Assembly: GCA_024178355.1 (NCBI GenBank)
Contig: JAMZNZ010000006.1
Coordinates: 1 to 64,000 of the forward strand
Length of the DNA: 64,000 bases
Direction: 5' to 3'
DNA from: Maricaulaceae bacterium EIL42A08
GTDB taxonomy: Bacteria > Pseudomonadota > Alphaproteobacteria > Caulobacterales > Maricaulaceae
Shown: one piece after another, positions 1-58,893 of the stretch
Layout: each line of letters starts with the position of its first letter
How positions within the stretch are numbered: the first letter of the stretch is position 1
Position numbers and translations under genes: made by a program
The notes under the pieces: generated by a model
What the model was told of the DNA's origin: nothing
The model's database searches: none
What the model saw: the letters and a program-made list of their open reading frames with translations, nothing else

Positions 1-126
1 CTGCTGCTGGTCGTCGATGACGGCGATGCCGGAGCTGTCATAGCCGCGATATTCCAGACGCTTGAGGCCTTCTAAAAGCCTGTCGCGAACCGGGTTCGAC
101 CCGACAATACCCACGATACCGCACAT
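1..126 (-). CDS. glmS: Glutamine-fructose-6-phosphate aminotransferase, N-terminal fragment
   Basis: This is the first 42 codons of a minus-strand gene that runs off the window edge. The N-terminus starts MCGIVGIVG, where Cys2 becomes the N-terminal nucleophile of the class II glutamine amidotransferase domain after Met removal. It continues with the [15 protein letters not shown] block typical of GlmS. The enzyme makes glucosamine-6-phosphate from fructose-6-phosphate and glutamine, the entry to UDP-GlcNAc for peptidoglycan and LPS. An upstream in-register ATG is ignored because Cys must follow the initiator Met. A run of Gs just upstream on the coding strand serves as ribosome binding site. 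Only the amidotransferase start is visible; the sugar-isomerase domains are outside. Confidence 0.93.
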
Positions 127-288
127 GCATTCCCCCCTTAAATGTTTTCCCGTATAAAGTGTCCTAATACCAACTTCAAGGTCAACGCTGAGAAGCGCCA
201 TCGAAAATTTCATTTCTCTGTTTAAGGACGGTGTGGGTGTTGGATGTCCTGCTGGCATAATTAGTCAAACATGAATAGAGGTAATAGG

Positions 289-1360
289 ATGCGTTTCGTT
301 TCAATCGTCGGCGCAAGGCCGAATTTCATTAAACTGGCACCTATCGTACGCGAGGCGGCCGGTCGCGGACTTGATCATCGCATCATCAATTCCAATCAAC
401 ACTCTGATGAAGAGATGAACCGGCGTTTTTTTCAGGCTTTATCACTTCCAGAACCAAATTTTATTTGTAAAGCGTTTAATGGTTCGCCGGCAGCACGGTT
501 CGGACGCATGATAGAAACCATAGGCATAGGACTAAATACGATCAGACCGGATATGGTACTAGTATATGGCGACGTAGCAACAACTGCAGCTGGAGCAATA
601 GCAGCGAGGCTCATCAACCTACCAGTCGCCCATTACGGGGCGGGGGTAAGGTCTGGCGATGACAATATGCTGGAAGAATTTAACCGCAAGCTGGTAGACT
701 CAGTCTCAGACCTTCTTCTGACACCCCACGAAAGCTGCGCAAGCAATCTCATCGCTGAGGGGGTATCAGGGCGGCAAATCTTTAATGTTGGAAATTTGTT
801 GGTCGACGCCGCTGAGCTGTTCGATGAAAGATTTGCGGCTGACCAATCATTTGGTAGCCCATACGTGCTTGTCACCCTTCATCGACCGGAAACAGTTGAT
901 GACCCAGACCGGTTTATTACTATTTTTGAAGCGATCTGCGAGGGATGTGAAGGGCTAGATATCGTCTTTCCGATCCATCCAAGAACTGAGCGATTAATCA
1001 ACGAACACCGACTGAATTTGCGCCAAGTCCACAAGTCAGGCCAGGTTCATGCTATCCCCACCACAGGGATACTTTCAAATTATGGGCCTTCAAAAAGGAG
1101 CTGACCTCATCATTACAGACAGTGCATGCCTTAGGGAGGAGGCGCTCATACTTGGTCGCCCATGCCTAACAGTTCGCGAAAGTAGCGAGTGGCCTCTGGA
1201 TCTGAAATTCAATTCAAACCTTATCTCGGGTCACAACCCTAACAAAATAGTTGAAATAGCAAAGCATCTTCGTGCCTTGGATATACGGCCAGACCCACTT
1301 CCAGAGAATTGGGATGGCAAGGCCGCGGAACGGATTTTAGATGCAGTGACCGGCTTTTAG
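289..1360 (+). pseudogene. UDP-N-acetylglucosamine 2-epimerase-like gene, frameshifted
   Basis: The reading frame from ATG 289 (AGAGG about 7 nt upstream) resembles non-hydrolysing UDP-GlcNAc 2-epimerases (WecB/MnaA): VGARPNFIKLAPIV at the N-terminus, YGDVATTAAGAIAA, HYGAGVRSGD, EEFNRKLVDS and LVTLHRPET. It runs out of frame near 1056-1059, a CCCC run. Removing one C restores an unbroken product of about 356 aa that continues PPQGYFQIMGLQKGADLIITDSACLREEA to a stop at 1360. The epimerase signature is also eroded: GG of the usual TDSGG is AC here, and the HVEAG Glu is Gly. The DNA is visibly AT-richer than the rest of the window, suggesting recent acquisition. It may be a decaying pseudogene, a sequencing error in a homopolymer, or a divergent sugar-nucleotide enzyme. 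Confidence 0.7.
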
Positions 1361-1846
1361 GGGGCACTTTTTGCTCGCTTGATTTGCCCAAAGAGCGGAA
1401 GAGCAAACACTTACCCTCGGAACGCGGGTATTCGCTATAATTCCTATTATATCCCACTGCACTTGCGAGGATGATTTTCCGTTATTGGCAGTAGTCTATT
1501 GTCAGATGAGAGCTAGCGCCCCAGTAGTAGCCACGGCACACCTTGATTTTTCTGGGAGTGTTCTACGAGCATCATCTAATGCTTTGCCGGTGCTAGTGAT
1601 ACACAGTGCTCGCATACGCACTCTCTATCTAGCGCGCAACCAACGCTAGCGGAGTCCAGCTGCCGTAACACCTGCAAGCAGGTCAAATCAATTGACTGGC
1701 ATACACTAACCTTCAGAAATCGGACCGCGCCTGCACCGGTCACTTCACCGCGCATCTTTGCCTTAATCGTTCAGTGACACAAAAATTCTGCCTACGCTTC
1801 TGCGCGTTAGGCCCTGGCATTGCGAAGGGGCAACATCCTGGACACC
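1361..1846. other. 486-bp stretch without a recognisable gene
   Basis: No reading frame here looks like a protein, and I see no tRNA, strong terminator or long repeat. Base composition is mixed and less GC-rich than the core genes. Because it lies between a decayed gene and an integrase, it may contain a recombination junction or attachment site. I cannot define core sequences by eye. Confidence 0.5.
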
Positions 1847-2803
1847 TCAGGCAAGTGCGCTACGACGCGTTGAAGATGGCAGCGCTTGCAGACTTGCCCA
1901 GCGGCGACGCTGCAAGTCGCCGGCCTGGGCGTGTTCAACATAGCGAAGCACCATATTCGGGGTGGTCCAGCCACCCGCCTGCATAATGGCTAGCGCATCA
2001 AATCCAGTCACCAACATATCCTGCGCCCCACCAACACGCATGGAGTGAGCTGAGAGCCTTGTCGCGCTCTCCTTAAGGCCGGCTCGGCGTGCCGCCTTTT
2101 TAACAGCGCGCCTAACTGAGCTAGTTTGCAGCGGTGAGCCTGAAGGCACCCGGCGATTGACGGCTCGAAAGACTGGCCCGCGGTTAATGCCTGCTGCCTC
2201 AAGCCAATCGCGCACTCGTTCAGCTGTATCATCTGAAAGCCAGGCGATCCGTCCATCCCCCGCCTGGTCAGACTTTGCCCGTCGGATCAAGACGGATGAG
2301 GCTCCGTCACGTAGATTAAAATCCTCAACTTCCATAGCCACGAGCTCGCATGAGCGTGTGAGGGTGTCGTATCCAACAGATATCAGCGCTGCGTCGCGGT
2401 ATCCCTCCAAATTTGGCGGGCAGGCTTTAAGGATTTTTTGAAGCGTATCGAAGGTTAGCCCTTCAGCCTGACGCGGCCGGCGCGCCTTCAACATAGTCGC
2501 ACGCCGCATTGCTAATCGGACAGAGCTCGCCTTCGTTGGATCGGCAAGATCTCCGTAAACATGAACAAATCGGATCGCTGCAAGTCGGCGCTTTAAGGTG
2601 CTTGGCAGGACCCGCGCAGTTTCGTCAGAGATAAATCGAGCAACAGTTTCGCTGTCGGCGGGATAGGCACTTACGCCCTCGCGATCACACCACGCGCAAA
2701 ATACGACGAGGTCGGACCGGTAGCCCTTGAGGGTCATTTCCGAGAATGCCCCTTCACAGCATACCAGAACTGCATCAACCTTATCATCGATGAAATAACT
2801 CAT
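1847..2803 (-). CDS. Tyrosine recombinase / site-specific integrase
   Basis: This 318-aa protein has the two-part layout of phage-type integrases. An N-terminal SAM-like core-binding domain (about residues 10-100) is followed by a catalytic domain. The visible active-site set is Arg150 (DTLTRSCEL), Lys177 (RRAKSDQ), His253 and Arg256 (SAHSMRVGGA), Trp279 in the usual His/Trp position (AGGWTTPNM) and the nucleophile Tyr288 (LRYVEHA). It would cut and rejoin DNA through a 3'-phosphotyrosine intermediate. It looks intact. Its start codon abuts an inverted repeat and a divergent HTH gene, which suggests shared control. It is the main evidence that the left part of the window is mobile. No excisionase or clear att pair was found. 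Confidence 0.9.
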   Translation of the reverse strand: MSYFIDDKVDAVLVCCEGAFSEMTLKGYRSDLVVFCAWCDREGVSAYPADSETVARFISDETARVLPSTLKRRLAAIRFVHVYGDLADPTKASSVRLAMRRATMLKARRPRQAEGLTFDTLQKILKACPPNLEGYRDAALISVGYDTLTRSCELVAMEVEDFNLRDGASSVLIRRAKSDQAGDGRIAWLSDDTAERVRDWLEAAGINRGPVFRAVNRRVPSGSPLQTSSVRRAVKKAARRAGLKESATRLSAHSMRVGGAQDMLVTGFDALAIMQAGGWTTPNMVLRYVEHAQAGDLQRRRWASLQALPSSTRRSALA

Positions 2804-2822
2804 GTGAGCTATTTTCGCTCAC
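2804..2822. promoter_or_regulatory. Inverted repeat at the integrase start
   Basis: A perfect 6-bp inverted repeat, GTGAGC-N7-GCTCAC, lies immediately upstream of the integrase start codon and ahead of the likely start of the divergent HTH gene. Its position suits an operator for the HTH protein that would control both genes. This is inferred from symmetry and location only. Confidence 0.35.
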
Positions 2823-2839
2823 TAGGGACTTGGTGTAAA

Positions 2840-3097
2840 GTGATTGCGGGCAGTCAAATCCGTTCAGCGAGGGCCATACTTGGTATTTCGTCAGAAGAAT
2901 TGTCTTCCTTGAGTGGGGTTGGTTGGGCAACCATTCGGCGGTTCGAAGAGGTACATGGCATACCGCCATCACGTTCCGGCACATTAGAGCGCGTAAAACA
3001 AACCCTCGAAGCCCAAGGCATTGAGTTTATCGGCGACCCCGAAACGAGCCCCGGCGTCATCCTTCACCGATCAAAACAAAAGCCTGACGACGCTTAA
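2840..3097 (+). CDS. Small helix-turn-helix (Xre-like) regulator
   Basis: The product of about 85 aa contains a compact HTH: IRSARAILGISSEELSSLSGVGWATIRRFEEVHG. This fits the Xre/Cro pattern of small alphaproteobacterial regulators that begin IxGxQIRAARALLG. An in-frame GTG at 2804 would touch the integrase start codon and leave no room for a ribosome binding site. I therefore prefer GTG 2840, which gives VIAGSQIRSARA as the N-terminus and has AGGGA upstream. The C-terminal part (LEAQGIEFIGDPETSPGVILHR) is the typical short tail of this family. Divergence from the integrase suggests a role in controlling the element, but the target is unknown. Confidence 0.75.
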   Translation: MIAGSQIRSARAILGISSEELSSLSGVGWATIRRFEEVHGIPPSRSGTLERVKQTLEAQGIEFIGDPETSPGVILHRSKQKPDDA

Positions 3098-3119
3098 ATG
3101 CGGAGGCCGGTGGCAACGC

Positions 3120-31900: not shown

Positions 31901-32039
31901 GGTTGGCGGTAAGCGACCCTCCCCATCAAGGGAGGGAAAAGGCTCCAAACCAAAATCTCCCAACTCCTGCCTTGGCTTTGCCGAATTGTATGCCATTCTG
32001 CCTGACGGGAATGCATTAACGGCAGGCAGGAGCGACTTC

Positions 32040-50175: not shown

Positions 50176-50670
50176 ATGACCGACGCGCCTGCCACTCCGC
50201 CTGCTGGCGACACCCAAGCACCGGTGATCCGGGTCCTGGGCCAGTATGTGAAAGACCTTTCCTTTGAAAACCCGAACGCGCCGGCAAGCCTGCGCGGTGG
50301 CGGCCAGCCGCAGATTGATGTGGCTGTCGACGTGCGCGCCCAGCCGCTGGAGCAGGACAGCTATGAAGTTGAACTGATCCTCAGCGCCAAGGCTGACCGT
50401 GATGGCGCGTCGCTCTTCATTGGCGAATTGACCTATGGCGGCATGTTCCTGGTTCAGAACATGGATGATCGCGCTCGCGACGCTTTCCTGCTCATCGAAG
50501 GCCCGCGCCTGCTCTTCCCATTTGCGCGCCGCATTCTCGCTGACGCAACGCGCGATGGTGGCTTCCCGCCACTTATGCTTGAGCCGATCGATTTTGCAGC
50601 GCTCTATCGCCAGAAGGCAGCGCAGGCCCAGGGTGGCGCTGCACCGGAAAGCCCGGCCGGCAATGCCTAA
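50176..50670 (+). CDS. secB: Protein-export chaperone SecB
   Basis: The 164-aa protein matches SecB: VIRVLGQYVKDLSFENPNAP, VDVRAQPLEQDSYEVELILSAKA, GELTYGGMFLVQNM and RLLFPFARRILADATRDGGFPPLMLEPIDFAALYRQ. As a tetramer it holds secretory preproteins unfolded and hands them to SecA. ATG 50176 gives the normal N-terminus; the longer upstream frame is not conserved. Its stop codon overlaps that of the convergent dnaQ gene (CTAA). Being close to the origin, it should be in high copy during growth. Confidence 0.96.
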   Translation: MTDAPATPPAGDTQAPVIRVLGQYVKDLSFENPNAPASLRGGGQPQIDVAVDVRAQPLEQDSYEVELILSAKADRDGASLFIGELTYGGMFLVQNMDDRARDAFLLIEGPRLLFPFARRILADATRDGGFPPLMLEPIDFAALYRQKAAQAQGGAAPESPAGNA

Positions 50671-51395
50671 CTGACGTCTTCAGGCTCAGCCTTCGGCTGA
50701 TCCTTCAATAGACCCAGCATCCTCCAGAGCGGGGTGTCCATTTCGCCAATAAAGGCGGCATGGGCAGCCCGCTCTTCTTTTGTGGCTCGCGATACCAGCG
50801 TCTTCGGGCGCGCAGCCCGAGGCGGGTAGACCACGTCAGTGCCTTCAGACCCCGATCCGCTAAAGCTCAAGCCCTGTTCGCGCCCGCCATTAAGCTCCAG
50901 ATAAACCTCAGCCAGCAGATAGGCGTCAATGAGCGCGCCGTGCTTGGTCCGGCTTTCCAGTGAAATATCAAAGCGCTTACACAGGGCATCAAGGCTGGCG
51001 GGCGCGCCAGGAAATTTTTTGCGCGCCATGGCCGCCGTATCGATGAAGCGTTCGGACGCAATCGGCGCTTTTCCGCAACGCTTGAGCTCCATATTGATAA
51101 AGCCCATGTCAAAGCCCGCATTGTGCGCAACAAGCTCACTATCCTGGACAAAATCAAGGAACTGATCGGCCACCTGAGCAAAAAGCGGCTCGTCTTTGAG
51201 CATCTCCCAGGTATGGCCGGTCACTTTTGTGACTTCGGGCGGGATATCTCGTTCCGGATTGACCAGAATTCGCAATTCCTTGCCGGTCGGGATCAGGTCA
51301 ATGACCTCCACACAACCCAGTTCGGTGATCCGGTCATCCCCGTCATGATGAAAGCCGGTTGTTTCGGTATCGAAGATAATTTGGCGGCCGGTCAT
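50667..51395 (-). CDS. dnaQ: DNA polymerase III epsilon subunit (proofreading exonuclease)
   Basis: This 242-aa 3'-5' exonuclease has Exo[23 protein letters not shown] (metal Asp and Glu), Exo[19 protein letters not shown] and Exo[24 protein letters not shown] with the active-site His and Asp. Residues after about 190 form the linker and alpha-binding tail. It proofreads for the replicative polymerase. It is the last gene of a five-gene run (ppsR-maf-aroE-coaE-dnaQ) in which each start overlaps the previous stop by 4 bp, transcribed away from the putative origin. Confidence 0.96.
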
Positions 51396-51991
51396 TGATC
51401 GCGCTCCAGCAAGGCTGTCATGACCTGTTCAACCTGCCCTCTGGCATGGTCGAGACCCTGGCTGGTATCGATGACGAAATCAGCCTTGTCCCGCTTGGTC
51501 GAATCAGGGGTCTGACGATCCAGTATGGCGTTGAACTTGGCCTCTGTCATACCGTCTCGGGCCAAGACGCGCTCTCGCTGCAGCTGAGGCGGCGCGCTGA
51601 CCACGATAACTGCATCAACCTGATCGGCCTGACCCGTTTCAAACAAGAGAGGTACGTCCAGGATGACGACTTCATGCCCTTCAGCGTCGGCTTTTTCGAA
51701 AAAATTGGCACGAGACTGAGCGACCAGCGGGTGAACAATATGCTCCAGGACCTCAAAACCTTCTGGTGTAGATTGCAGTAAAGCAGAGAGCTTTGCCCGA
51801 TCTACGCCGCTCTCTGGGTCAGCGCAGCCTGGAAAGGCCTTCGCTATGGGTTCAACAGCTGCGCCGCCAGGCCCGTAGAGCTCAGCAACGGCCTTGTCGG
51901 CGTCAAACACGGCCGCACCGGCCTTTGCGAACATCGCCGCCGTTGTAGATTTTCCCATCCCGATAGAGCCGGTCAGTCCAACAACAATCAT
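51392..51991 (-). CDS. coaE: Dephospho-CoA kinase
   Basis: The 199-aa kinase has a P-loop near the N-terminus ([12 protein letters not shown]), the dephospho-CoA region [22 protein letters not shown] and the lid [20 protein letters not shown], then [18 protein letters not shown]. It phosphorylates the 3'-OH of dephospho-CoA, the last step of CoA synthesis. Four-base ATGA overlaps tie it to aroE upstream and dnaQ downstream. Confidence 0.96.
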
Positions 51992-52809
51992 GCCTGTTGC
52001 CCCAGCGCTTTAAGCAGTGTGGATTTGATCGGGGTGTCAGCTGGCGGTCGCACGCCGAAGAACGCTTCAAAGCTCGGCCTGGCCTGACCGATCAACATCT
52101 CAAGCCCATCCACACATCGCCGTCCTGATCGCGCACCCTGCTTGAGCAGTCCGGTTTCAAGCGGTGCGTAGACCATGTCGAAGATGAGAGCATCGCTTTC
52201 AGTCGTCGAAAGATCAGGTACCAGAGCCGGCTGCCCTGACATTCCCAGCGACGTGGCATTGATAACAAGGCCAGCACCCATCAGCGCCTCGTTAAGGTTG
52301 GTCGAGATCTGGATCGACACCGGGCAGGTCGCAGCTAGCGCCTCCGCCCTCTTCCGTGTTCGATTGACGATGGTGATTTGTCGATCCTGTCGGGCGAGAT
52401 AGTAAAGCGCAGCTCGCGCCGCCCCGCCTGCACCGATCAGAACCGCAGGCGTATCAGTTTTATCCCCAGCCAGAGCCGCTTCGATCCCAATGATATCGGT
52501 ATTGTCAGCTTTCAATGTACCTTCTGGCGTTGCAGTCAAAAGATTAGCGGCACCAATCGCTTTTACTGCATCCGTCGCGTGATCAGCACATTGAAGCGCA
52601 ATCTCCTTGTGGGGAACCGTGACATTGACCCCGGCCCAACCCAGCTCCGGCAGAGCTTTGAAGAAGCGCTCTGCGTAGCTTGGCGCAATTTCAACCCGGC
52701 CATACTCACCAGGACACTTCGCATCATCCAGCCAGCGCCGCATCATCACGGGCGAAAGTGAATGATTGACCGGAAACCCGGCGACAGCGGCGAACGGCGC
52801 GTCTTTCAT
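51988..52809 (-). CDS. aroE: Shikimate dehydrogenase
   Basis: The 273-aa enzyme shows [17 protein letters not shown] (substrate Ser residues), [14 protein letters not shown] with the catalytic Lys, [14 protein letters not shown] (Asn-x-x-Asp), the NADP-binding [16 protein letters not shown] and [12 protein letters not shown], and a closing [14 protein letters not shown]. It reduces 3-dehydroshikimate to shikimate for aromatic amino acids. It sits in the middle of the near-origin operon with 4-bp overlaps on both sides. Confidence 0.96.
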
Positions 52810-53387
52810 GGGGTCAGGACACCCTGCTCTCGCAGCGCATCAAGTACGGGTAAAAGCGGCAAGCCAAGGATCGAGAAAAAGTCGCCCTCCACAGACTGAA
52901 AAAGCTGAGCGCCGAGGCCCTCAAAGGCATAGGCCCCGACGCCCTTGGTCAGGATATCGCCAGCTTCAGCCATGTAACGCTCGTGGAAGGCGTCCGACCA
53001 TGTGCGCATTGTCAGCTTGGCAGAGCTTTTATGCTCCCAGACGATTGTATCGCCCCGGGCCAGGACCACGCCGCCTTGAAGATAGTGAACGCCGCCGCGC
53101 AGCATTTTCAGGCGCTCACTCGCCTCGTCTGTCGATCTGGCCTTGTCATAGGCCTTGCCATCAAATTCCAGCACCTGGTCAGCGCCCAGAATCAAGCCCT
53201 CACGCCGGGTTGAAACCGCTAGCGCCTTGGCTTTCGCCAGATGAAGCGCGAGATCTGACGGGCCGCCATCGAACATCTCTTTGAGTGCGCCTTCATCCAC
53301 ATCTGCAGGGTCGACTTCAAACTCGACGCCTGCATTTGTCAGAAGCGATCGACGGGACGCTGATCCAGACGCGAGGATAAAACTCAT
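52806..53387 (-). CDS. maf: Maf family nucleotide pyrophosphatase
   Basis: The 193-aa protein has the Maf signature: FILASGSASRRSLLTNAG, KALAVSTRREGLILGADQVLEFDGKAYDKARS, ASERLKMLRGGVHYLQGGVV and KGVGAYAFEGLGAQLFQSVEGDFFSILGLPL. Maf proteins hydrolyse non-canonical or UTP/dTTP-type nucleotides and affect division in some bacteria. ATGA overlaps join it to ppsR upstream and aroE downstream. Confidence 0.95.
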   Translation of the reverse strand: MSFILASGSASRRSLLTNAGVEFEVDPADVDEGALKEMFDGGPSDLALHLAKAKALAVSTRREGLILGADQVLEFDGKAYDKARSTDEASERLKMLRGGVHYLQGGVVLARGDTIVWEHKSSAKLTMRTWSDAFHERYMAEAGDILTKGVGAYAFEGLGAQLFQSVEGDFFSILGLPLLPVLDALREQGVLTP

Positions 53388-54217
53388 GACAGTTGCCGTT
53401 TGTGCTCGTTGATAAGATTGATTATTTTTGCCGCGGTTTCTTCGATTGAACGGCGGGTGACATCAATATAGGGCCAGCCCTGGCGCGCAAACAGGCGCTT
53501 GGCGAACACCACTTCTTCTTTCACAGAAGATTCGTCGACATAGTCCGTGGATCGATCCTCCTTCAGATTTAGCAAGCGGTTGCGCCTGATCTGTACGATC
53601 CGGTCCGGTGAGGCCGTCAGGCCAACAATCAGCGGCTTTTTAAGTGTGTAGATTTCATCTGGTAGCGGCACACCTGGGACCAGCGGAATGTTCGCGGCCC
53701 TGAAGCCCCGATGCCCCAAATAGACGCTCGTTGGCGTCTTTGAGGTACGGCTGATCCCTAGCAGGATCACATCAGCACTCGCAAAATCATCACCCTGCCC
53801 GTCATCATGGGCCATGGAATAATTCATCGCCTCAATGCGCTGATAATATTCAGCGTCGAGCACCCGCTGGGCCCCGGCCTTGCCCCGGATCGGAGCGCCC
53901 AGATAGCTCGAAAGCGTCGCCTGAATCGGATCCAGTACGGCAATCGCCGGGATATCAAGCCGCGCGCAGAAGTCTTCCAGCTCCCGCCGCAGCTCAAAAT
54001 TTACCAGCGTATACATGACAATACCCGGATACTCGGAAATATGCTTCAGGGCGCGTTCCAGCTGCTTGGAACTTCGAACCAGCGCAAACAGATGCTCGAT
54101 CGGTTCGACCCGCTCAAATTGGGCGACCGATGCATGCATGACTTCGATCAGGGTCTCACCGGTCGAGTCCGAAATCATGTGAACATGGAAATGAATAAGA
54201 GAGTCACTACGCGACAT
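53384..54217 (-). CDS. Pyruvate, phosphate dikinase regulatory protein
   Basis: The protein of about 277 aa starts MSRSDSLIHFHVHMISDSTGETLIEVMHASVAQF, a family-typical N-terminus. It contains a P-loop-like DVILLGISRTSKTPTSVYLGHRGFRAANIPLVPG and DYVDESSVKEEVVFAKRLFARQGWPYIDVTRRSIEETAAKI. PPSR proteins phosphorylate with ADP and dephosphorylate the dikinase (or PEP synthase), but no ppdK gene is in view. ATG 54223 is an equally possible start; the longer frame to 54295 is not conserved. It is the first gene left of the putative origin. Confidence 0.92.
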   Translation of the reverse strand: MSRSDSLIHFHVHMISDSTGETLIEVMHASVAQFERVEPIEHLFALVRSSKQLERALKHISEYPGIVMYTLVNFELRRELEDFCARLDIPAIAVLDPIQATLSSYLGAPIRGKAGAQRVLDAEYYQRIEAMNYSMAHDDGQGDDFASADVILLGISRTSKTPTSVYLGHRGFRAANIPLVPGVPLPDEIYTLKKPLIVGLTASPDRIVQIRRNRLLNLKEDRSTDYVDESSVKEEVVFAKRLFARQGWPYIDVTRRSIEETAAKIINLINEHKRQLS

Positions 54218-54287
54218 GGCCATCACCGATCTGGGTCGTTTCAAAACGCGAAAAGCCTCGCGCCCAGCTGTGAACAAGTCACGAGCT

Positions 54288-54300
54288 TTTTCCACGCTAA
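54288..54300 (+). repeat. 13-bp direct repeat, left copy
   Basis: TTTTCCACGCTAA occurs here and again at 54589-54601, at the two edges of the putative origin. Each includes a DnaA-box-like TTTTCCACG. Confidence 0.7.
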
Positions 54301-54437
54301 CCCGATTTGAGACCGCTTTGGCAGGCTTTCATCCAGCCCATACCCATTTGGCGCCCAGACTCTCACAGCGAGCAGCATGAATGGCTGTGGGTATTTGCAG
54401 GCCTGTGGATCGAAGCCCGTGAACCGATTTAAAAAAG

Positions 54438-54452
54438 TTAACGGTCGTTTAA
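54438..54452. promoter_or_regulatory. CtrA box (perfect TTAA-N7-TTAA)
   Basis: TTAACGGTCGTTTAA matches the full CtrA recognition sequence. In Caulobacter such boxes in the origin let phosphorylated CtrA silence replication in swarmer cells. Confidence 0.75.
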
Positions 54453-54463
54453 TCTGTTCACAG

Positions 54464-54478
54464 TTAACACTTTGTTTA
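54464..54478. promoter_or_regulatory. CtrA box (one mismatch)
   Basis: TTAACACTTTGTTTA fits TTAA-N7-TTAA except for one base. It lies 26 bp from the first box and 21 bp from the third, so the three are on nearly regular helical spacing. Confidence 0.55.
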
Positions 54479-54484
54479 CGCGGG

Positions 54485-54499
54485 TTAAGAAAGCGTTAA
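54485..54499. promoter_or_regulatory. CtrA box (perfect TTAA-N7-TTAA)
   Basis: TTAAGAAAGCGTTAA is a second full match to the CtrA recognition sequence within 62 bp. Confidence 0.75.
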
Positions 54500-54588
54500 T
54501 CCGGAATTTGCCAACAGTGCCTATTGCGCTGTGGAGAAGATTTTCCCACAGGCTGTGAATTTCGGGCGCCAACATGATTTATAAGTGG

Positions 54589-54601
54589 TTTTCCACGCTA
54601 A
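54589..54601 (+). repeat. 13-bp direct repeat, right copy
   Basis: Second TTTTCCACGCTAA, 301 bp from the left copy, between the CtrA cluster and hemE. Confidence 0.7.
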
Positions 54602-54710
54602 GCGCTGCTCTACTCCTAATCACCCCTTTTTCAAAAGGGAAAAAGAACGGTAAGAGACCGGACAGGTGATTGGGGAAAACTCCCAACGAATGGCGTATGA
54701 GGACCACTAT

Positions 54711-55748
54711 ATGGCTAGCCAGACGACGAAACCCTTCCTGCGTGCACTGGCTGGAGAGACAGTTTCGCCACCGCCCATCTGGCTCATGCGCCAGGCTGGA
54801 CGTTATCTGTCTGAATATCGGGAAATTCGCGCCACTCAGCCCAACTTCATCGATTTCTGCCTGAACCCGGAAGCCGCAGCCGAAGTGACCTTGCAACCAA
54901 TCCGGCGCTTTGGCTTTGATGCGGCTATCGTCTTCTCTGATATTCTGGTGATCCCCTATGGGCTCGGACAGAAAGTCTGGTTCGAGAAAGGCGAGGGGCC
55001 AAAACTTGACCCGATCGCACTGTCAGATATCGGCAAGCTGAGCCGTGATCGTTCCCGTGAGGTTCTGCAGCCGGTGGGTGAAACCCTCAGGCGGGTCAAA
55101 GCCGAACTTCCAGAAGAGGTGGCTCTGATCGGATTTTGTGGCGCACCGTGGACGGTAGCGACCTATATGATTGATGGCGGCGGTTCGAAGGATCGCTTCA
55201 ACCCGCGCCGTCTGGCCTGGTCAGATCCTGAAGGCTTCGATGCGCTGATGGATCTTCTGGCAGATGCCAGTGCTGATTATCTGATGGACCAGGTGGCCGC
55301 TGGAGCTGACGCGGTCAAAATCTTTGATAGCTGGGCAGACAGCCTTCCCGATCCGTTGTTTGATCGGGTCGTGATCCGACCCACCAAGCGCATTGTGGAT
55401 CGTTTGAGGTCTGAAGGTGTGACGGTGCCGATTATCGGCTTTCCGCGCGGGGCAGGTCCGCAGGGTGTGCGTTATGCTGCACAAACTGGTGTAACGGCAC
55501 TGGCGCTGGATCACGGCATGGATACCGGATGGGCATCATCTAACTTCCCGAAAACATTGCCGCTTCAGGGCCAGCTCGATCCAGCAGTCTTGCGTGCAGG
55601 TGGCTCGTTGCTGGATGACGAGATCGATCGGCTTCTTTCCGCGTGGGCCGGTCGGCCCTATGTGTTCAACCTCGGACACGGAATTCATCTGGAAACGCCG
55701 ACGGATCACGTCTCGCAGCTAATTGAGCGCGTACGGTCCCACGGCTAA
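54711..55748 (+). CDS. hemE: Uroporphyrinogen decarboxylase
   Basis: The enzyme of about 345 aa shows PPPIWLMRQAGRYLSEYREIR (substrate Arg residues), DAAIVFSDILVIPYGLG with the catalytic Asp, GFCGAPWTVATYMIDGG, AVKIFDSWADSLP, IIGFPRGAGPQ and FNLGHGIHLETP with the late His. It converts uroporphyrinogen III to coproporphyrinogen III. ATG 54711 has AGGA 8 nt upstream and gives the usual N-terminus. It is the first gene right of the putative origin, the same neighbour as Cori in Caulobacter, and starts a hemE-hemH-hemJ run. Confidence 0.96.
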   Translation: MASQTTKPFLRALAGETVSPPPIWLMRQAGRYLSEYREIRATQPNFIDFCLNPEAAAEVTLQPIRRFGFDAAIVFSDILVIPYGLGQKVWFEKGEGPKLDPIALSDIGKLSRDRSREVLQPVGETLRRVKAELPEEVALIGFCGAPWTVATYMIDGGGSKDRFNPRRLAWSDPEGFDALMDLLADASADYLMDQVAAGADAVKIFDSWADSLPDPLFDRVVIRPTKRIVDRLRSEGVTVPIIGFPRGAGPQGVRYAAQTGVTALALDHGMDTGWASSNFPKTLPLQGQLDPAVLRAGGSLLDDEIDRLLSAWAGRPYVFNLGHGIHLETPTDHVSQLIERVRSHG

Positions 55749-55764: not shown

Positions 55765-56829
55765 ATGGGCCGACGCATTGCAGTCGTCTTGTTCAATCTT
55801 GGTGGACCGGACGGTCCTGACAGCGTGCGCCCATTTCTGCGCAATCTGTTCAAGGACCCGGCCATTATCGGTGCGCCTGGCCCGATCCGCGAAGCGTTAG
55901 CCTGGTTGATTTCAACGACGCGCACCAAGGAAGCGTCGGAAAACTACGCCAAGATGGGGGGTGGCTCGCCGCTGGTGCCGGAGACTGAAAAACAGGCGGC
56001 GGCCCTGACAGAAGCCCTGAGCGGCGTGATGCCGGACGACGAAATCAAATGCTTCCTGGCCATGCGCTACTGGCATCCCTTCGTCGAAGAAGCTGTCGAG
56101 GCGGTCAAGGAGTGGGTACCGGATGAAACGGTGCTGCTACCGCTCTATCCGCAGTTTTCAACCACCACGACAGGCTCATCGCTCAAGGCCTGGAAGGATG
56201 CGGGCGGTCCTGAGGCCCGTACCGTATGCTGCTACCCGGAGCAGGATGATTTCATCACGGCCCATGCCAAGCTGATCGAAGAAGCCTACGAAAAGGCCGG
56301 TCGCCCGGCCGATCCGCGCATTCTGTTTTCAGCCCATGGCTTGCCGGAGATCACGATCAAGAAGGGTGATAGCTATCAGTGGCAGGTCGAACAGACCGTC
56401 GCCAAGGTGGTGGAGAAGCTCCCTGAGGATTTGAAAAACCACGAGATTTGCTACCAGTCGCGCGTCGGGCCGCTCAAATGGATTGGCCCGTCCACCGAAG
56501 AAGCGATCGAGCGAGCCTGTAGTGATGGCAAGCATATCTTCCTGACGCCGATTGCTTTTGTCTCCGAGCATATCGAAACGCTGGTTGAGCTGGATGAAGA
56601 ATATGCCGAGTTTGCCGAGGAGTTTGAAGCGCGTGGGTATGATCGCGTCGCGGCTCTTGGCGCGCACCCTTATTTTATTGAAGGCTTGAAATCACTGGTG
56701 ATTGGGGCTCTCAATGGGCGTGTCGGATTAAATCCGCCCAACGGTGCGCCTGTTTGCCCTGGCAAGTTCAAGCGCTGCCCGTGTCTTGAGGCCGGGATGG
56801 GTGTTGAAGAAGCGGAGAACGCTGCGTGA
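55765..56829 (+). CDS. hemH: Ferrochelatase
   Basis: The product of about 354 aa shows RIAVVLFNLGGPDGPDSVRPFLRNLF, MGGGSPLVPET, MRYWHPFVEEAVEAV, LPLYPQFSTTTTGSSLKAW, the active-site His in ILFSAHGLPE, WIGPSTEEAIE and FVSEHIETLVELDEEYAEFAEE. It inserts Fe(II) into protoporphyrin IX. A C-terminal Cys group (PVCPGKFKRCPC) could be ligands of the [2Fe-2S] cluster known in Caulobacter ferrochelatase; this is inference. ATG 55765 (GAGGG upstream) starts 16 bp after hemE, and the hemJ start overlaps its stop. Confidence 0.96.
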   Translation: MGRRIAVVLFNLGGPDGPDSVRPFLRNLFKDPAIIGAPGPIREALAWLISTTRTKEASENYAKMGGGSPLVPETEKQAAALTEALSGVMPDDEIKCFLAMRYWHPFVEEAVEAVKEWVPDETVLLPLYPQFSTTTTGSSLKAWKDAGGPEARTVCCYPEQDDFITAHAKLIEEAYEKAGRPADPRILFSAHGLPEITIKKGDSYQWQVEQTVAKVVEKLPEDLKNHEICYQSRVGPLKWIGPSTEEAIERACSDGKHIFLTPIAFVSEHIETLVELDEEYAEFAEEFEARGYDRVAALGAHPYFIEGLKSLVIGALNGRVGLNPPNGAPVCPGKFKRCPCLEAGMGVEEAENAA

Positions 56830-57278
56830 TTGAATGGCTGGGTTCGGGGTCGGTCTATCTGACCATTAAGGCACTTCACATTGCCGCTGTCATTTTCTGG
56901 ATGGCTGGCATGCTTTATCTGCCCCGGCTATTTGTGTACCACCATCAGGCGGAAAGCGGCGGTGAGCTGGAAGGCGCGCTTCAGACACAGGAGCGCAATC
57001 TTCTGAAAATCATCATGAACCCGGCGCTGATTGCAGTCTGGCTGCTGGCCATCACGATGATTGTGGCAAATCCGGCGCTGTTAAGCGCCGGCTGGTTCCA
57101 CGCCAAGCTACTCCTGGTCCTCATTCTTTCCGGCCTGCATGGCTTTTATGCCGCAACCGCCAGGAAATTCCTTGCTGGCGAGCGTCCGCGGACCGAGAAA
57201 TTCTGGCGTATGATCAATGAAGTACCGGCCATCGGCGCGATCATTATTGTCATCTTTGCTGTCGTGAAACCGTTCTAG
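56826..57278 (+). CDS. hemJ: Protoporphyrinogen oxidase HemJ
   Basis: This 150-aa membrane protein has four hydrophobic helices. It has the HemJ (UPF0093) pattern IKALHIAAVIFWMAGMLYLPRLFVYHH, with the heme/substrate His, then NPALIAVWLLAITMIV, WFHAKLLLVLILSGLHG and a short RxxxxxFWRMINEVPAI loop before the last helix. It oxidises protoporphyrinogen IX to protoporphyrin IX, the step before ferrochelatase. It starts at GTG 56826, whose GTGA overlaps the hemH stop. Confidence 0.93.
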   Translation: MIEWLGSGSVYLTIKALHIAAVIFWMAGMLYLPRLFVYHHQAESGGELEGALQTQERNLLKIIMNPALIAVWLLAITMIVANPALLSAGWFHAKLLLVLILSGLHGFYAATARKFLAGERPRTEKFWRMINEVPAIGAIIIVIFAVVKPF

Positions 57279-57546
57279 GACTGACTGTTGCCATCTTGAC
57301 CTGCCTGACAAGGCGTGGCACGGCTTAGATCAAGTTTCGCGCCCGCGCGAAATCCCTCCTTTAATCACCAGCGCGCTTTTCCAACGGACAGCAAGTTGCG
57401 TGATCTCAACCCAGATCCATAACCTGGCTTCGATCCGTCAAAGACAGGTGTTCAGTGTTGATCCGTGATCCTGGCTGGCGCCGGGCTTGCGGCGCGGTGT
57501 ACGCCTTTCCTGAAACGGTCCCGCCAGCCCATTTGAGATACGAGTG
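57279..57546 (+). promoter_or_regulatory. Leader region of rho
   Basis: This 268-bp untranslated stretch contains GC-rich hairpins (for example GCGCCGGGCTTGCGGCGC around 57480) and C-rich, G-poor segments. In other bacteria rho transcripts are autoregulated by Rho acting on a long C-rich leader. The arrangement fits, but no clear leader peptide is seen. Confidence 0.45.

Positions 57547-58893
<1,347 letters not shown>

Follow-up and report, generated by a model that had tools for sequence, protein, structure and literature searches.

The origin of replication of Caulobacter crescentus, Cori, is bounded by hemE and a DUF299 gene (passages of PMC1914354). Two cooperative CtrA sites occupy the -35 and -10 of the hemE promoter Ps, as described in parts of PMC11264516. 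The Caulobacter G-box reads TGATCCACA and the published Caulobacter IHF site, TAACGCTCTGTT, overlaps a CtrA site (both in passages of PMC4285127). Marine caulobacters, too, are reported to use CtrA at their origins, a trait that probably arose separately from that of freshwater Caulobacter (Shaheen, Ouimet and Marczynski 2009, as cited in passages of PMC4468827), and a CtrA ChIP-seq peak lies beside the origin of Hyphomonas neptunium (passages of PMC7200025). The locus described here is of the Cori type and thus known in kind. It shares with the C. crescentus origin the hemE/DUF299 boundary genes, a similar gap length, CtrA-like boxes and weak DnaA-like boxes, with H. neptunium a presumed association of CtrA with the origin, and with Sinorhizobium meliloti the presence of CtrA in an alphaproteobacterium.

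The window, which is the whole stretch of 64,000 nucleotides analysed, carries a 493-bp gap between ppsR/DUF299 and hemE that is very probably the chromosomal replication origin (Table 1). This assignment is based on the Cori boundary genes, the GC-skew minimum of the window and the skew switches of the genome. The preliminary description had already proposed a probable origin beside hemE with flanking genes transcribed away from the gap; gene order and skew minimum both agree with it, and the two boundary genes diverge as it had stated. The genes further out also read away from the gap, mnmE being found beyond rho on the hemE side. A divergent DUF299/hemE gap is present in 101 of the 111 family loci examined. 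The genus of the host is Oceanicaulis-like on sequence grounds: its HemE and the one encoded by a named Oceanicaulis metagenome-assembled genome (MAG) share 96% identity, and two gaps of the window's genus are identical to named Oceanicaulis MAG records. At the far left of the window (1-3100) the GC content falls to about 0.51 at the window start, next to a tyrosine recombinase-like ORF (1847-2803, minus strand) and an epimerase-like gene split across two ORFs (271-1360), both named by eye; this segment is a possible island edge.

Table 1. Features of the candidate origin and of its surroundings (positions in the window)
Feature	Positions	Strand	Basis
Chromosomal replication origin (candidate)	54218..54710	.	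Gene order, skew switch, divergent DUF299/hemE gap
ppsR/DUF299 (COG1806), boundary gene	53384..54217	-	NF003742, 324.8 bits vs cut-off 225
hemE, boundary gene	54711..55748	+	TIGR01464, 384.8 bits vs cut-off 302.95
maf-like, aroE, coaE-like, dnaQ, reading away from origin	50667..53387	-	Gene list and profiles; coaE named from sequence only
hemH, hemJ, rho, reading away from origin	55765..58893	+	Profile matches
CtrA-like box, perfect, not conserved (third box)	54438..54452	.	Motif match only
CtrA-like box, left member of 21-bp tandem pair (TTAACACTTTGTTTA, 7/8)	54464..54478	.	Motif match, conserved in alignment
CtrA-like box, right member of 21-bp tandem pair (TTAAGAAAGCGTTAA, 8/8)	54485..54499	.	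Motif match, conserved
DnaA-like box TTGTTCACA near ppsR, conserved core	54269..54277	-	Relaxed match; TGTG core 25/25
DnaA-like box TTTTCCACG	54288..54296	+	2 mismatches
DnaA-like box ATACCCACA	54386..54394	-	2 mismatches
DnaA-like box CGATCCACA, one base off Caulobacter G-box TGATCCACA	54404..54412	-	Relaxed match
DnaA-like box TTCTCCACA	54530..54538	-	1 mismatch
DnaA-like box TTTCCCACA, then inverted partner CTGTGAA	54542..54550	+	Relaxed match, alignment
hemE-proximal DnaA-like box TTTTCCACG	54589..54597	+	Relaxed match; TCCAC 20/25
CTACTCCTA, candidate DnaA-trio/unwinding start	54610..54618	+	Position, partial conservation
AT-rich imperfect palindrome adjoining hemE, candidate unwinding region	54624..54645	.	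Sequence
DnaA-like box TTTTCCCCA	54671..54679	-	2 mismatches

The GC skew, put forward in the preliminary description as a check, has its cumulative minimum within the window at 54,903, about 400 bp from the CtrA-like boxes. The signal is weak, as this minimum is shallow (-407 vs -342 at 44.0 kb), and the cumulative TA skew of the window reaches its minimum at 31,955, away from the gap. Skew was also sampled over about 0.68 of 2.99 Mb of genome. Both left segments of contig C4 are negative in GC skew (-0.019, -0.005) and its right arm is positive in 15 of 20 stretches, the other five ranging from -0.001 to -0.030. Contig C1 turns from positive (all 8 stretches as far as 535 kb) to negative (11 of the 12 that start at 600 kb or later); elsewhere C3 is negative in 8/8, C5 positive in 3/3, C2 positive in 8/9 and the single C6 stretch negative. 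The sampled signs point to a main minus-to-plus switch at the gap and to a terminus in C1 (between 535 and 600 kb). A dif-like pattern, itself guessed, has no match in the genome. The single-contig relative G094 carries its hemE/DUF299 gap at 2.30 Mb, and its TA skew switches between 2.25 and 2.40 Mb: of 10 stretches between 0.9 and 2.25 Mb, 9 are negative, and of 10 on the opposite arm, 9 are positive. Its GC skew is weaker, the minus arm being negative in 6/10 stretches and the other arm positive in 9/10.

Many bacteria initiate replication beside dnaA, and contig C2, whose first 10 kb are negative before an otherwise positive contig, provides the one competing minus-to-plus switch. Both facts, like the displaced TA-skew minimum of the window, would fit a true origin elsewhere, for example next to dnaA (C4:430,695) or within the initial 60 kb of C2. 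The stretches sampled closest to dnaA have GC skews of -0.001, -0.001 and +0.032 with no switch, however, and with the gap as origin the plus and minus arms measure about 1.6 and 1.4 Mb, so that an origin at another place is barely credible. The dnaA gene (G000:C4:430695-431171) lies about 376 kb from the origin gap, and about 246-313 kb from the same gap in three single-contig congeners (G093, G094, G097); in Caulobacter dnaA is near the origin. Its position in the congeners suggests that dnaA is simply displaced, which also counts against an origin beside it.

Three CtrA-like boxes of the form TTAA-N7-TTAA together span 62 bp inside the gap, two of them perfect and the left member of the pair with one mismatch, exactly as first described. 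The two perfect ones are the sole such matches in the window. Across the 2.99 Mb genome the bare motif shows no enrichment, as it occurs perfectly at 19 places, these two included, vs 20 for a reversed-pattern control, so it is the clustering in the 493-bp gap that counts: boxes with at most one mismatch number on average 2.00 across the 15 gaps of the genus vs 0.09 in dinucleotide shuffles. Raw genome-wide motif counts are not used as evidence in what follows; pairing, clustering and conservation are. By motif and conservation, the boxes at 54464 and 54485 are likely CtrA sites, and together they make up a conserved tandem pair. Their arrangement, TTAA-N7-TTAA-N6-TTAA-N7-TTAA with starts 21 bp (two helical turns) apart, was scored over 16 letters. 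No other tandem site of the genome matches as well as this pair, at 15/16. When up to 3 mismatches are allowed, the tandem pattern occurs at 3 genome places and its reversed version at 5; distinctiveness is therefore confined to the close match, and looser ones mean nothing. The second-best tandem site (14/16; L352, at G000:C1:49309-49344) lies between flgI-like and fliX-like ORFs identified by eye, and flagellar gene regions are the kind of place where CtrA acts in Caulobacter.

Conservation was assessed in 111 family loci (the window, 30 and 80 relatives), with a DUF299 match in 127 of 137 genomes; 16 of the 126 family relatives with such a match lie outside this set. Among congeners, the 21-bp pair scores at least 14/16 in 11 of 14 and 13 in the remaining 3. 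Across the family, in which spacings of 12-60 were scanned, it reaches at least 14/16 in 33 of 101 gaps, the next spacing doing so in 5. The threshold was set after the data had been seen; at 13/16 the counts are 42 gaps for 21 bp vs 18 for the next spacing. Because related genomes do not count as independent cases, genera are given as well as loci: the pair is found in 11 of 18 family genera (next-best spacing, 4 genera), and 7 of the 18 have no pair reaching 14/16. In an alignment of 25 sequences, 19 of the 24 relatives have the pair at 14/16 or above, which is not an unbiased rate because the alignment joins the genus to ten gaps of four genera chosen after boxes had been seen at a similar place. 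None of the 24 has a box aligned with the one at 54438, and all three boxes as one conserved cluster are thereby ruled out. Conservation of the boxes in relatives, a check named in the preliminary description, thus holds for the pair and fails for the third box. Genera g4, g8, g13 and g18 of family f1 have no tandem pair; in nearly every locus listed for them a single CtrA-like box lies some 25-60 bp away from where DUF299 starts, and control may be placed differently there.

The TTAA pairs might be a by-product of AT-rich origin DNA, or be bound by IHF or by a paralogous response regulator. The left CtrA-like box contains TAACACTTTGTT, which by eye is 10/12 like the Caulobacter IHF site TAACGCTCTGTT (passages of PMC4285127), and the genome has ten Trans_reg_C matches. 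Against this, 100 dinucleotide shuffles yield on average 0.28 and at most 2 gaps with the 21-bp pair vs 33 observed, with 5 at the next spacing, and several pair-bearing gaps are GC-rich (AT 0.34-0.38). We consider this explanation, in either form, very improbable. Note that neither form of the IHF consensus (WATCA-N5-WTR or WATCA-N4-TTR) has a match in the gap; the published Caulobacter site is itself degenerate, so that a missing consensus is weak evidence against an origin of the Cori type. The left box as a dual CtrA/IHF site is a lead only.

The DnaA-like boxes of the gap are clustered but degenerate. The pattern TTATCCACA with up to 2 mismatches has 117 matches in the window, 8 of which are inside the gap where about 0.9 would be expected at window density, and the strict DnaA box TTWTNCACA has none in the gap. 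The five DnaA-box-like sequences initially reported compare with these 8 relaxed matches and no strict one. Two cores are conserved among the aligned gaps, TGTG at 54269-54272 in 25/25 and TCCAC at 54592-54596 in 20/25. The distance from the pair to the next DnaA-like box varies: in genera g1, g6, g15 and g19 the box follows at 38-88 bp in 17 of 20 loci and at 5-8 bp in three, in g5, g9 and one g7 locus at 1-2 bp, and five further family loci have none after the pair by the same definition. AT-rich tracts, also part of the first account, are represented by the palindrome adjoining hemE, whose aligned place is likewise A/T-rich in relatives. The naming of CTACTCCTA at 54610 follows the DnaA-trio motif and serves as a lead only.

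The 21-bp pair is also found in the Caulobacter-type gaps L319, L321 and L325 and in the named Caulobacter L101, the C. crescentus gap not being among those compared. In the Caulobacter-type gaps that carry it, the pair comes after the last DnaA-like box and 49-64 bp before hemE, and further CtrA-like boxes are spread over about 400 bp; here all three CtrA-like boxes are within 62 bp and the pair is upstream of the hemE-proximal DnaA-like box, ending 211 bp from hemE. The earlier statement that this organism couples replication to CtrA in the same way as Caulobacter is not borne out, given this placement. Its "more compact layout" applies to the clustering of the boxes but not to the gap, whose 493 bp fall within the 447-577 bp of 23 gaps of the Caulobacter-containing family f3. 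A description of the conservation of the 21-bp pair was not found in the titles, abstract starts and selected passages that make up the literature consulted; the geometry itself may already have been described in Shaheen, Ouimet and Marczynski 2009.

As the Caulobacter pair is the hemE promoter Ps (passages of PMC11264516), the gap could be the origin while its CtrA pair mainly times transcription of hemE, initiation being affected only indirectly. The gaps of family f5 lend themselves to this reading, since in the six that bear a pair it ends 11-17 bp from the hemE start. In the window, by contrast, 211 bp with DnaA-like boxes separate pair and hemE, and a sigma-70 promoter scan of 54190-54760, which does not cover CtrA promoters, found none. 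Genus g17 allows the two roles to be told apart. Among its nine fetched loci, eight (L066, L198, L211, L228, L229, L230, L235, L240) are without hemE in the 1.5-1.8 kb of sequence inspected upstream of DUF299; judged by eye, the plus-strand ORF that comes next reads as rho in 6 loci and as a GST-like gene in the other 2. The hemE profile finds the gene on another contig in four of these genomes and nowhere in the other four, which are drafts reported to be 92-100% complete and possibly heme dependent. Six of the eight loci nevertheless keep the pair at 14/16 or better, the other two scoring 13, and 3 of the 4 genomes with no detected hemE are among those that keep it. The pair thus follows the origin and would be an element of it, not only a hemE promoter; a hemE promoter role on its own is rejected on the strength of these six loci. 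In g17 the pair might also serve the new neighbour gene, and this tempers their weight against timing of hemE as its main role, a reading that we find improbable but less so than the other alternatives.

Direct control of initiation by CtrA is the reading we prefer. The genome encodes CtrA (C3:113,665; equivalog NF045991, 429 bits vs cut-off 350), whose receiver domain matches the CtrA chain of 4qpj, and GcrA and ChpT genes were found as well, giving the Cori-type feature of a CtrA orthologue with its phosphorelay, as judged from these genes. It is quite likely, taking the model as a whole, that the gap is the origin of an Oceanicaulis-like bacterium in which CtrA~P on the 21-bp pair blocks assembly of DnaA. 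DnaA would assemble on the weak boxes, its probable nucleation points being the conserved sites near 54270 and 54589, and would open the AT-rich hemE-proximal end, with CTACTCCTA and the palindrome (54610-54645) as candidate opening region. CtrA~P would bind cooperatively at 54464-54499, as two dimers on one face of the helix. Placed between the conserved DnaA-like sites at 54269 and 54589, it would exclude DnaA, and by analogy with Caulobacter the origin would fire only once CtrA has been cleared. In Caulobacter, when the affinity for CtrA was reduced at every one of the five Cori sites, replication in laboratory culture was disturbed only mildly, but the change mattered with nutrients and antibiotics together (passages of PMC4468827). 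Such a mild effect suggests that "control" by CtrA may mean fine adjustment, and the same may hold here.

The distribution of the pair outside the family was followed in convenience samples of four other families (69 loci from 229 genomes, 66 with a usable gap), the taxon names given here resting on gap similarity to named records. A pair at 14/16 or better is found in 4 of 23 f3 gaps (3 of 10 of genus g28 and one other), in 4 of 13 f4 gaps, where it is placed near DUF299, and in 6 of 15 gaps of f5, the family of Parvularcula maris, whose own gap has no pair. L319, L321, L325 and all six pair-bearing f5 gaps have no DnaA-like box after the pair, which stands at the hemE end. The sister family f2 shows a 31-bp and not a 21-bp spacing: the latter occurs in 0 of 15 gaps, the former in 5 (L292, L295, L297, L298 and L300, with boxes three turns apart). 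Named alphaproteobacterial gaps have the pair in 6 of 56 cases, namely two Oceanicaulis, one Caulobacter and three Cohaesibacter; the gaps of the two Oceanicaulis records (L092, L093) duplicate those of family loci included above. The Cohaesibacter loci L135, L138 and L143 are hemE/DUF299 gaps outside Caulobacterales with a 21-bp TTAA pair, at 16/16 in L135. Origins of this sort are said to show no CtrA sites.

That the same 21-bp geometry occurs at differing places suggests a functional unit that arose repeatedly or was moved. The two-turn tandem CtrA site could be a lock that recurs in alphaproteobacterial origins, having evolved several times and in different parts of them. In the Oceanicaulis group it lies upstream of the DnaA-like box closest to hemE, in some Caulobacter and some f5 it occupies the end towards hemE, in f4 it is near DUF299, and Cohaesibacter has it too. 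This proposal is tentative, and we rate it at somewhat less than an even chance. If it is true, selection would act on the paired geometry, not on position or on hemE. The tandem pair provides a specific, countable mark for testing, and genus g17, in which hemE was lost from the locus, is a natural experiment that parts origin control from hemE transcription.
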